In this document: positions 27,372-29,996 of the stretch, piece by piece | Numbering within the stretch: position 1 is the stretch's first letter | How the letters are laid out: each line of letters starts with the position of its first letter | Source of the DNA: Alphaproteobacteria bacterium | GTDB lineage: Bacteria; Pseudomonadota; Alphaproteobacteria; Micavibrionales; UBA2020 | Length of the DNA stretch: 64,000 bases | Direction of reading: 5' to 3' | Assembly: GCA_021413445.1 (NCBI GenBank) | Contig: JAIOQI010000001.1 | Span: 1 to 64,000 of the forward strand | Translations under genes and position numbers: made by a program | The notes under the pieces: model-generated | Databases searched by the model: none | The model's input: the letters and a program-made list of their open reading frames with translations, nothing else | What the model was told of the DNA's origin: nothing

Positions 27372-27947
27372 ATGGCGATCGAAAACAATCCAGAAAAGAA
27401 GCCTTTGGGCGACAAAATCCGCGACCTGATTAATCCGGCGCTGGAAGACGAGCGCAAGAACGCCATTCAGCTGAAAATTCTGGACGAGATTTTCGAGGAA
27501 ATCACCCAGGTTTTCCCAAAAATCATGGAGCAGAACTACAGCGACATTTTCAACAAGGCTGCGCAGATTAACAATCCGGCCGATAAAAACAACTTTATCA
27601 TTAAAACCATCACCCTGCAGGGATCCAAGGGGCGCAAGGAATATTCACCCACCCTCCCCCTGGGTCTGCCGATTGTGACGGCTTTCACCAGCTTCTCGGC
27701 TGAGGACATCAAGACCCTGCCCGGCTACGTCAAGCTTCACCTGGCGGCGCGCACGCATAACGTCGCCCTCAAGATCACCGGCCTGACGGCGGATGAATCC
27801 AAAGGCGGCGGCGGCGCGGCGCTGATTATCGACGGCATGAAAACCTACGAGCAGGGCGCCATGGAGAACTACAATCTCTATCCCAACCTGCCCGAGAAGC
27901 CCCCTGTGCCTTTTGACGCCCAGGGGCCGGGAAAATTCCGCCTCTAA
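27372..27947 (+). CDS. Conserved-looking cytoplasmic protein, unknown
   Basis: 191 residues without signal peptide or membrane segment. The N-terminal third is helical and charged (LKILDEIFEEITQVFPKIMEQN). The middle has a beta-rich globular look (FIIKTITLQGSKGRKEY; LPIVTAFTSFSAEDIKTLPGYVKLHLAART). A Gly run SKGGGGAALIIDGMK and a Pro-rich tail follow. A strong promoter precedes it. The last base of its stop codon is the first base of a 195-bp palindromic element, so the 3' end may have been shaped by that insertion. No family recognised. Confidence 0.75.
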   Translation: MAIENNPEKKPLGDKIRDLINPALEDERKNAIQLKILDEIFEEITQVFPKIMEQNYSDIFNKAAQINNPADKNNFIIKTITLQGSKGRKEYSPTLPLGLPIVTAFTSFSAEDIKTLPGYVKLHLAARTHNVALKITGLTADESKGGGGAALIIDGMKTYEQGAMENYNLYPNLPEKPPVPFDAQGPGKFRL

Positions 27948-28141
27948 GAGCGTTTCTGCTTTCATCGTACGCGTCGTTATCCTTCCGCCTACGCCCTAAC
28001 GGGCTTCGACGGACTGAGCGCTCAGACCGCCGAAGCTGCTTGCAGCGTAGGCTGGTCAGTCTCGGCGTGCTCACGTACCGAGTGTACGTTCCGCGCGCCT
28101 CGCTTCGGCTGCCTAGCGTACAATGAAAGCAGAAACGCTCT
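27947..28141. repeat. 195-bp nested palindromic element (MITE-like)
   Basis: The ends are 26-base inverted repeats (27,947-27,972 and 28,116-28,141; outer end AGAGCGTTTCTGCTTTCAT) that match at 25 of 26 positions. Inside lies a second hierarchy: GCCTACGC (27,987-27,994) against GCGTAGGC (28,045-28,052), GCTTCGACGG (28,003-28,012) against CCGCCGAAGC (28,027-28,036, one mismatch), and at the centre the perfect palindrome CTGAGCGCTCAG (28,014-28,025). No reading frame of note is inside. It separates two convergent genes and could act as a terminator-like structure, but it has no T tract; a non-autonomous mobile element or dispersed palindromic repeat is more likely. No second copy was seen in the window. 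Confidence 0.85.
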
Positions 28142-28149
28142 AAATTGAA

Positions 28150-28632
28150 TTAATCTTTCGTGTGCTTTTCTGCCGGGCCGTTGCGGCGGCGCTGGTCGAT
28201 TTCGCCCTCCAGGGCGCGCAGCTCCGCGCAGTCGGTCAGGCCGCAGGTCATGCGGATGACCTGCAGTTGTTCCAGCGCCCGCGCCACGTCTCCCGCCTCC
28301 AGGTACATGTCGCCGAGATATTTGTTGGCGCCCAGATGCGCCGGGTTGAGGAGCAGGGCCGTGCGGAAGCTTTTGGCGGCGTTGCCGACATCGCCGAGGC
28401 GGTAATAGGCATAGCCGCGGTAAGTATAGGCGTCGGCATTCTGGGGGTGGCGTTCCAGCACTTCGCCCACGGTATCCAGCGCGGCGCTGAATTTCCCCGC
28501 CGATAAAAAATACTCCGCCTTGGTAAGGCCGGAGTCTTCCCGGAAGGGGATTTCCTGCCCGGCGGCCCGCGCCGGGAGGGCCGCTGACAGCATCAGGCCG
28601 GCAAGCAAAACGGCGGTACGCGGTGAAAACAT
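28150..28632 (-). CDS. Exported TPR-repeat protein
   Basis: 160 residues from the ATG at 28,632. A signal peptide (TAVLLAGLMLSAALPARA-AG) precedes three TPR units: AEYFLSAGKFSAALDTVGEVLERHPQN, ADAYTYRGYAYYRLGDVGNAAKSFRTALLLNP and LGANKYLGDMYLEAGDVARALEQLQVI. A cysteine pair (CGLTDC) follows and the tail is charged. The start overlaps the carboxypeptidase stop as TGATG, so it is translationally coupled to dacC-like and presumably works in the same periplasmic cell-wall context. Confidence 0.87.
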   Translation of the reverse strand: MFSPRTAVLLAGLMLSAALPARAAGQEIPFREDSGLTKAEYFLSAGKFSAALDTVGEVLERHPQNADAYTYRGYAYYRLGDVGNAAKSFRTALLLNPAHLGANKYLGDMYLEAGDVARALEQLQVIRMTCGLTDCAELRALEGEIDQRRRNGPAEKHTKD

Positions 28633-29996
28633 CACTCGACGGCCAGCACCAGGCAACCGCCTTTTAAGATGCGGCAGGCCTGCGCGGCGTCATTGCGGGC
28701 AAGACCCAGCAGCTTGGCGCGGTAAATCATGCCCCGGTTGGTCATGAGCGGGGCGATGGTATCCACGCCGTTGACGACGCCCTGCAGGGAGGTCTTGGCG
28801 ATTTTAAGGGCGTGGATTCCCGCATCGCGGCTTGAAAACGTGCCGATCTGGATCGCCCAGCTGCCTTTTGCCTGCGGGCTGGCGGAGGCTGTCTGCAAGG
28901 CGCCGCTGCGGTCAACGGGAGGCTTGCCGTAGATGATCCGCGCGGTCTTGCCGTCTTCGTTGATGGCGGCATCGCCCTGGTCCATGACCAGGTCTGCCGC
29001 GTTAAACGTCGCCCCGGCCCCGGCCCCTGCATTGTCCACCGAGACTTCCACGGCTTTTTGGAAGGCGGCCGGCTTGCGCACCGGCAGGGTTTTGTTTTCA
29101 CCGGTTTCGCCCAGCGAGGCGACGCGGATGTTGCTGATGCGCGCAAAACTGTTGTCGAGAAGTTTTTTCATGACCTGGTTGCGGACCCGTGCCGTCTTGC
29201 CGCCGAAAACAACGCCGATCAGCCGCGTGCCGTCGCGGACGGCGGAAGAGGCGAGGTTGAAGCCGGAGGCATAGACATAGCCGGTCTTCAGGCCGTCCAT
29301 GCCCTGGTAGCTGCTCATCAGTTTGTTGTGATTGAAGTAGGTGTTTCCTTCATAGGTGAAGGAGGCGGTGCTGAAATAACGGTAATAGCGGGGATAATCG
29401 CGGATGAGCGCCTGGGACAGGGTGGCCATGTCGCGGGCGGAGCTGAACTGGGAGCGGTTATGCAGGCCGGAGGCGTTGACGAAGTGGGTGTTGTTCATGC
29501 CCAGCTGGCGCGCCTTGGCCGTCATGGCACGCGCGAAACGGTCCTCGGAACCGCCGATGGCTTCGGCGAGCGTAACGGCGCAATCGTTGGCGGATTTGGT
29601 GGCGATGCCCAGGATGGCGTTTTCGACGCGAATGGAGTCGCCCGGCTTCAGGCCCAGCGAGGAAGGTTCCTGCGACGCCGCCCTTCTTGAAACGGGTATA
29701 TACTGGTTTTTATTCAGGGTGCCCTGCGACATCGCTTCAAAAGCCAGGTACAGCGTCATCATCTTGGTCAGCGAGGCCGGGAACAGCCTTTTGTCGGGAT
29801 TTTTTTCGCTGATGACGTATCCGGTGGAAGCGTCAATCACGATGGCGGCAAAACGGTCGGGCTGCGGCTGATAAGTATGTTTTTTCTTGCGGGCGGCTTC
29901 AGCAGGATTTATGCCGAGGGCAAGCACCAGCGCCGCGATCGCCAGGATCGTTAAAAAACCTTGCAAATTCAGGTCTATTGTCTTTTTCCCAGGCAA
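28632..29996 (-). CDS. D-alanyl-D-alanine carboxypeptidase (PBP5/6 family) with SPOR domain
   Basis: Low-molecular-mass penicillin-binding protein that trims the terminal D-Ala from peptidoglycan stem peptides in the periplasm. Active-site motifs are S75-LT-K78, S135-A-N137 and K237-T-G239. An N-terminal hydrophobic segment (LTILAIAALVLALGINPAEA) is the signal or anchor. The C-terminus (about 375-454, WAIQIGTFSSRDAGIHALKIAK...) is a SPOR domain, which binds denuded glycan at division sites; this replaces the amphipathic anchor of E. coli PBP5. It is cotranscribed with the exported TPR protein. Confidence 0.95.
   Translation of the reverse strand: MPGKKTIDLNLQGFLTILAIAALVLALGINPAEAARKKKHTYQPQPDRFAAIVIDASTGYVISEKNPDKRLFPASLTKMMTLYLAFEAMSQGTLNKNQYIPVSRRAASQEPSSLGLKPGDSIRVENAILGIATKSANDCAVTLAEAIGGSEDRFARAMTAKARQLGMNNTHFVNASGLHNRSQFSSARDMATLSQALIRDYPRYYRYFSTASFTYEGNTYFNHNKLMSSYQGMDGLKTGYVYASGFNLASSAVRDGTRLIGVVFGGKTARVRNQVMKKLLDNSFARISNIRVASLGETGENKTLPVRKPAAFQKAVEVSVDNAGAGAGATFNAADLVMDQGDAAINEDGKTARIIYGKPPVDRSGALQTASASPQAKGSWAIQIGTFSSRDAGIHALKIAKTSLQGVVNGVDTIAPLMTNRGMIYRAKLLGLARNDAAQACRILKGGCLVLAVE

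Follow-up and report, generated by a model that had tools for sequence, protein, structure and literature searches.

A 195-bp palindromic unit in an alphaproteobacterial genome as a small hairpin element, probably of ERIC/Correia type, invaded by a second palindrome

The window analyzed here, a 64,000-nucleotide stretch of an alphaproteobacterial genome, carries between two convergent genes a 195-bp unit with terminal inverted repeats (TIRs) and a palindromic interior, and the locus raises the question of what kind of repeat this is and how it came to be placed there. A preliminary description found that the unit would fit either a MITE or a bacterial interspersed mosaic element (BIME), with a nested layout that was not recognized. 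In our reading, it is very probably a MITE-like element of an ERIC/Correia-type superfamily that carries a nested insertion.

Layout of the unit and of its short relative

An inverted-repeat search returns the pair of 26-bp ends that had been described, identical at 25 of 26 positions (Table 1), and no gene lies within the 195-bp unit or its 124-bp base. The potential for a very large hairpin is likewise borne out, as a 231-nt stretch folds at −106.3 kcal/mol compared with −70.6 ± 4.3 for shuffled sequences (z = −8.4, reached by 0 of 200 shuffles). The interior had been viewed as pairs nested around a perfect center; the center, CTGAGCGCTCAG, is indeed perfect, but the unit is not a single concentric palindrome, because CTGAGCGCTCAG centers a separate 66-bp repeat that lies off-center in the unit, and a distinct apex, at 28073–28089, belongs to the host element. 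The predicted fold is a three-way junction in which an outer stem leads to the apical hairpin of the host element and the inner hairpin branches off to the side.

Table 1. Features of the window element and its surroundings, with related palindromes at tRNA ends
Feature	Position	Strand	Remark
Upstream gene	27372..27947	+	191 aa, no Pfam match
TAA stop of co-oriented upstream gene	27945..27947	+	at left junction
Left terminal inverted repeat	27947..27972	+	25/26 vs right end
Base element (124 bp), left arm	27947..27985	+	query 1–39, 95% to short copy G000:C42
Nested insertion, ~70 bp	27986..28055	+	missing from C42 copy; edges ± 1–3 bases
Inner 66-bp palindrome	27987..28052	+	inverted repeat within nested insertion; center CTGAGCGCTCAG 28014–28025
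Base element, apex and right arm	28056..28141	+	query 110–195, 91% to C42
Apical hairpin GGCGTGC-TC-ACGTAC-loop-GTACGT-TCC-GCGCGCC	28064..28099	+	conserved part common to several phyla
Right terminal inverted repeat	28116..28141	+	25/26 vs left end
Downstream convergent gene	28150..28656	−	TPR protein
Inner-insert-type palindromes at tRNA ends	G000:C26:54372–54434 (L012/L261); G029:C1 ~672050 (L019, L250)

The composition of the unit is revealed by a second copy in the same genome (G000; 2.11 Mb in 87 contigs, 87% complete). This copy (C42:75213–75336) is 124 bp long, complete with both TIRs, and aligns with positions 1–39 and 110–195 of the window unit without 40–109, the missing part being the segment with the inner palindrome. 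Since it is exactly this segment that is absent, the window unit resolves into a 124-bp TIR element plus a palindrome of ~70 bp in its left arm. The 195-bp palindrome is thus a composite, a small mobile hairpin element invaded by a second palindrome, and the unfamiliar layout is accounted for by such an insertion into an ERIC/Correia-like host. Given that nearly all copies of the long family retrieved lack an insert at this point, a gain by the window copy is a simpler reading than a loss from the C42 copy.

That the unit is instead a BIME or REP cluster built by local duplication is highly improbable. Although the inner palindrome resembles REP sequences and has counterparts next to tRNA genes, the complete 124-bp copy without it contradicts this reading, and the host element consists of one long hairpin rather than a REP array. 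The insert resembles REP and CGTC-tagged palindromes, a class described mainly from Alphaproteobacteria (PMC3733652), in being a short palindrome; it differs in lacking a recognized CGTC tag and AT-starting stem, and its host element is far larger.

Independent inserts of other palindromes lie in the left-arm loop entered in the window copy (CGTTATC^CTTCGG), or close to it, in G120:C7 and G122:C17, both with a 62-bp GCAAAGCAA-type palindrome, and in G133:C70, with a REP-like one of ~30 bp; in G029:C4 a palindrome occupies the opposite arm, and Nitrospirota copies (L154, L129, L140, L141) carry REP-like inserts in the left arm. Such recurrent entry at one loop illustrates the origin of composite repeats. 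A second type of palindrome, of ~62–77 bp (GCAAAGCAA...TTGTTTGCTT..TCGAACAA), lies in either arm within the elements L243 (G120:C7), L244 (G122:C17), and L017 (G029:C4). In addition, a palindrome resembling the inner insert adjoins a tRNA-Leu gene in contig C26 of G000, and palindromes of this type (CCGCCTACGC / CCGCCTTCGC) abut the CCA ends of tRNA-Leu and tRNA-His (Table 1), as if tRNA 3′ ends were a favored target.

Insertion sites and the search for a mobilizer

The unit starts on the last base of a stop codon and ends 8 bases short of the convergent gene's stop, as had been noted. TAA occurs again at 28141–28143, and the TAA pair flanking the window copy is compatible with duplication of a TA(A) target. 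Across 68 copies, TA stands directly before the left end in 34 (p = 1e-23) and directly after the right end in 18 (p = 8e-8), compared with 6% in flanks; of the target duplication that had been proposed as a check, a clean form is limited to a minority of copies, with TA enriched at each junction but present at both at once in only 13 of 68.

The left end lies on a co-oriented stop codon in 24 of 71 unique copies, defined as a long same-direction frame whose stop starts 3 to 0 bases before the end, compared with 2 at the mirror junction, or 5 if +1 is counted; the 24 include a few orthologous positions, and two of them rest on frames of 91–94 codons. The stop is usually at −2, with the first base of the element (A or G) completing TAA or TAG. 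Such copies are often found at rpsI, rplQ, groEL, or gyrB, and the protein ends (RpsI, RplQ, GroEL, GyrB, cytochrome oxidase subunit III, and AhpC), as judged from their sequences, appear native. Insertion into a stop codon that the element itself restores would explain how the 3′ ends of essential genes are loaded harmlessly. Many other copies sit upstream of genes or antisense to them.

At rpsI, the element is present in 4 of 30 genomes inspected, and within one genus it is found in G035 and not in G044. Where rpsI lacks the element, most relatives with downstream sequence examined show an intrinsic terminator after the stop codon; in G035, the element sits between the two. No intrinsic terminator or promoter was found at the window element. 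Its downstream neighbor is not common to the genus relatives, and hence no alignable empty site for the window copy exists among them.

Short, non-coding, bounded by TIRs, dispersed in several copies, and variably present between relatives, the element has the features of a MITE, and that part of the preliminary description holds in view of the second copy in G000, the many copies in relatives, TA at the junctions, and the variable occupancy of rpsI. Most probably, a non-autonomous element of ~124 bp, with TIRs and a TA-rich target, inserted at the TA of the stop codon and restored that codon with its first base, and a second palindromic repeat later entered an internal loop of the left arm, the fold surviving. 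The element would move as DNA, mobilized in trans by a TA-specific transposase that may have been lost from the genome or escaped recognition. Lying in a 3′ UTR, it would be transcribed as a long bulged hairpin and may act on mRNA processing or stability.

A transposase with matching ends, proposed earlier as a check, was sought in three incomplete assemblies (G000, G122, and G120), and none was found. The TIRs occur in G000 only in the two copies, with no pair around a gene, while close TIR matches in G122 and G120 are element-sized pairs or single pieces, with no long pair enclosing a gene. To our knowledge, many accepted MITEs, ERIC and Correia included, have no known autonomous partner. 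Two candidates were rejected: IS630/Tc1 mobilization, as the DDE_3 (IS630-type) transposase is absent from seven of eight carriers tested and IS630-type transposases are absent from G000, and REP/BIME mobilization by RAYT, as no Y1_Tnp is present in the 87% complete G000 assembly. The pneumococcal RUP, associated with IS630-Spn1, is comparable as a TA-target MITE of ~107 bp and as a model for mobilization in trans (PMC2229807), but differs in this association, given the carriers without an IS630-type transposase. By blastn, plasmids gave no match to the element and phages none to the short copy; at the gathering score, Rfam recognizes only a tRNA in the window.

Distribution in the order and compensatory change

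A covariance model built from four copies (R1), applied to 142 genomes of the same order, has matches in 58 of them, at most ~20 per genome (20 in G035 and 19 in G122), although some low-scoring matches close to the threshold may be unrelated hairpins. The same search finds no element in seven other species of the genus. The copy count that had been called for thus comes to two in G000 and many in relatives. A single copy at a fixed position, which the preliminary description regarded as an argument against mobility, is not what is found, as there are multiple copies and both presence and absence at rpsI.

The fold itself was assessed in a MAFFT alignment of 47 copies (A4), from which a second model, R2, was derived; without inserts, the units are ~101–124 bp long. 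Two-sided changes are seen in 31 of 36 pairs, and 92.5% of cells are paired compared with 72.8% in shuffles. Covariation reaches 0.536, compared with 0.187 ± 0.009 in shuffled alignments (0 of 500) and at most 0.157 in slid controls; kinship among the copies can raise such counts, but the excess is large. Stems are swapped wholesale between copies with complementarity kept, and the stem beside the apex switches as a block from GGCGTGC/GCGCGCC to ATAAAAT/ATTTTAT. U–G pairs (in 46 of 47 copies at columns 31/97) and asymmetric internal loops are kept, which together indicate that one strand is the constrained one.

These patterns could also be expected of a vertically inherited structured RNA, kept for a host function in 3′ UTR processing or stability and rarely moving. 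In line with this are the two-sided changes across the whole fold, the U–G pairs that fix one strand, the placement at native stops of mostly highly expressed genes, the occurrence of the rpsI copy in several genera, and a small RNA, TTCGGTGCTCACGTACTTTTAG, reported from two loci of Thalassospira by small-RNA sequencing (PMC6413936). The latter matches the apical arm, and such hairpins are therefore probably transcribed, at least in Thalassospira. Nevertheless, we consider an RNA of this kind quite improbable, given the absence from all seven genus relatives, the presence and absence at rpsI within one genus, the ~20 copies each in G035 and G122, and the many copies upstream of or antisense to genes.

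For a mobile element, the arms are informative in another respect. Many copies in G122 have arms of identical type, and since arms are common to copies within one genome, the compensatory change predates amplification, which seems to point to selection on propagation. Terminal repeats that change together could reflect transposase binding. However, this would hardly account for an internal stem and loops that co-vary ~47 nt from the ends, and the fold itself appears important for the element.

Relationship to Correia and ERIC

Correia (1988) and ERIC (1991) repeats have been used in strain typing and affect neighboring genes. The resemblance of the window family to both was seen first and tested afterwards, with models and an alignment (R1, R2, and A4) that had neither in training. 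R1 matches a gonococcal Correia element and an E. coli ERIC, one of each, over their entire length, and scores much lower on the other strand. The A4 profile scores 20.7 for Correia (null −19.6 ± 6.6) and 13.5 for ERIC (null −13.5 ± 6.2), in each case reached by 0 of 200 pair-preserving shuffles and far above the score of the reverse complement. In a complete 2.17-Mb N. gonorrhoeae chromosome, R1 has a single match, a Correia element, whereas R2 has 24 (best E 1.7e-8, with 20 of 24 below 4e-5), every one a Correia element by sequence and every one oriented the same way. R2 also matches E. coli ERIC at E 7e-7 and 2e-6 and K-12 ERIC at E 2.6e-5, the top match of 45 kb with filters off; all R2 E-values are approximate, the calibration having been short. 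The K-12 stretch (L294) was used in place of a 50-kb O157 stretch (L293), which contains type III effector genes. Correia elements are prominent palindromes of the gonococcal genome, so pairing alone favors them as matches, but the fixed orientation and the shuffle test demonstrate shared sequence beyond pairing, and loop sequences are indeed common to the window family, ERIC, and Correia.

Correia (CREE or NEMIS) is ~104 bp long, with TATAGT...ACTATA ends, and shares with the window family the TA target, a long bulged hairpin, and a conserved CGTT...GCCTTG core, but its terminal arms and apex-adjacent stem differ, and the link is made by covariance model and profile rather than plain identity. 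ERIC (RU-1 or IRU), at ~127 bp, likewise has a TA target, a single long hairpin with an apical internal loop TCA/CTCC, and the same orientation-specific core; it differs in its arms, its gammaproteobacterial distribution, and the lack of the nested insert of the window copy. Plain nucleotide identity to ERIC proper was not found by blastn against plasmids, and here too the link consists of covariance model and profile. A same-orientation core of sequence plus structure, a TA target, and a unit size comparable to ~105–127 bp are therefore common to all three. In the open-access literature searched, the two named repeats figure in the same lists as distinct MITEs, with no paper found that unites them, and a connection between the two seems not to have been made previously. 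As precedents for an action on RNA, NEMIS is cleaved by RNase III, and ERIC is reported to affect mRNA stability in Yersinia (PMC2229807, PMC10969869). In a relaxed Rfam scan, an E. coli ERIC (L231:359–482) has one sole, sub-threshold match, to V_AS5 (Vibrio RNA AS5), which raises the possibility that V_AS5 is an ERIC-type element too.

Beyond these families, at least 114 genome-contig stretches contain the apical motif GTGCTCACGTAN{3,9}TACGYTSCGCGC, the taxa among the matches listed including Nitrospirota, Nitrospinota, Alphaproteobacteria, Myxococcota, Bacillota, and Coriobacteriia. These copies are set within long inverted repeats, and most are aligned at full length by R1 and R2; single contigs may reflect MAG contamination. 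The same contigs hold a few further model matches away from the exact motif (L203, L180, L123, L108, L132). Among named contigs, those with the best scores (L156, L181, L117) indicate an alphaproteobacterial origin of the window. Outside the motif, 91% score higher in the right orientation than when swapped, with a median z of only ~1, and in view of this weak similarity, superfamily membership of the other phyla is claimed only with caution.

This weakness, along with arms that differ wholly between families, is what convergence would predict, with ERIC and Correia being no relatives and unrelated elements being driven to one hairpin by the mechanics of palindromes of ~100 bp or by a common host factor such as RNase III or IHF. 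We regard convergence as unlikely, because the ERIC and Correia matches are orientation-specific and exceed pair-preserving shuffles, with a single orientation in N. gonorrhoeae, and loop sequences are shared as well as pairing. We infer common descent of ERIC, Correia, and the window family. A wider reading, which we hold tentatively and short of even confidence, is that ERIC, Correia/NEMIS, and unnamed families in at least Nitrospirota, Nitrospinota, Myxococcota, Bacillota, and Alphaproteobacteria form one ancient superfamily whose propagation requires the whole bulged hairpin, which might be recognized, for example, as folded single-stranded DNA or RNA by unknown machinery. With a fold found across phyla and maintained by compensatory change, a covariance model is available for mapping the superfamily and seeking an autonomous partner or host factor.

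Several observations concern individual groups of copies. Thirteen viral contigs (L217–L229) carry the apical motif in alphaproteobacterial-type hairpins, and near-identical copies among them suggest related prophages. Copies in Nitrospirota and Nitrospinota (L104, L106, L120, L146, and others), of which there are many per genome, have A6 at their left border and T6 at their right border (GTTGAAAAAA...TTTTTTGAAC), as in a bidirectional terminator. In a Mogibacterium MAG, two model matches lie in tandem (L132:5501–5743).
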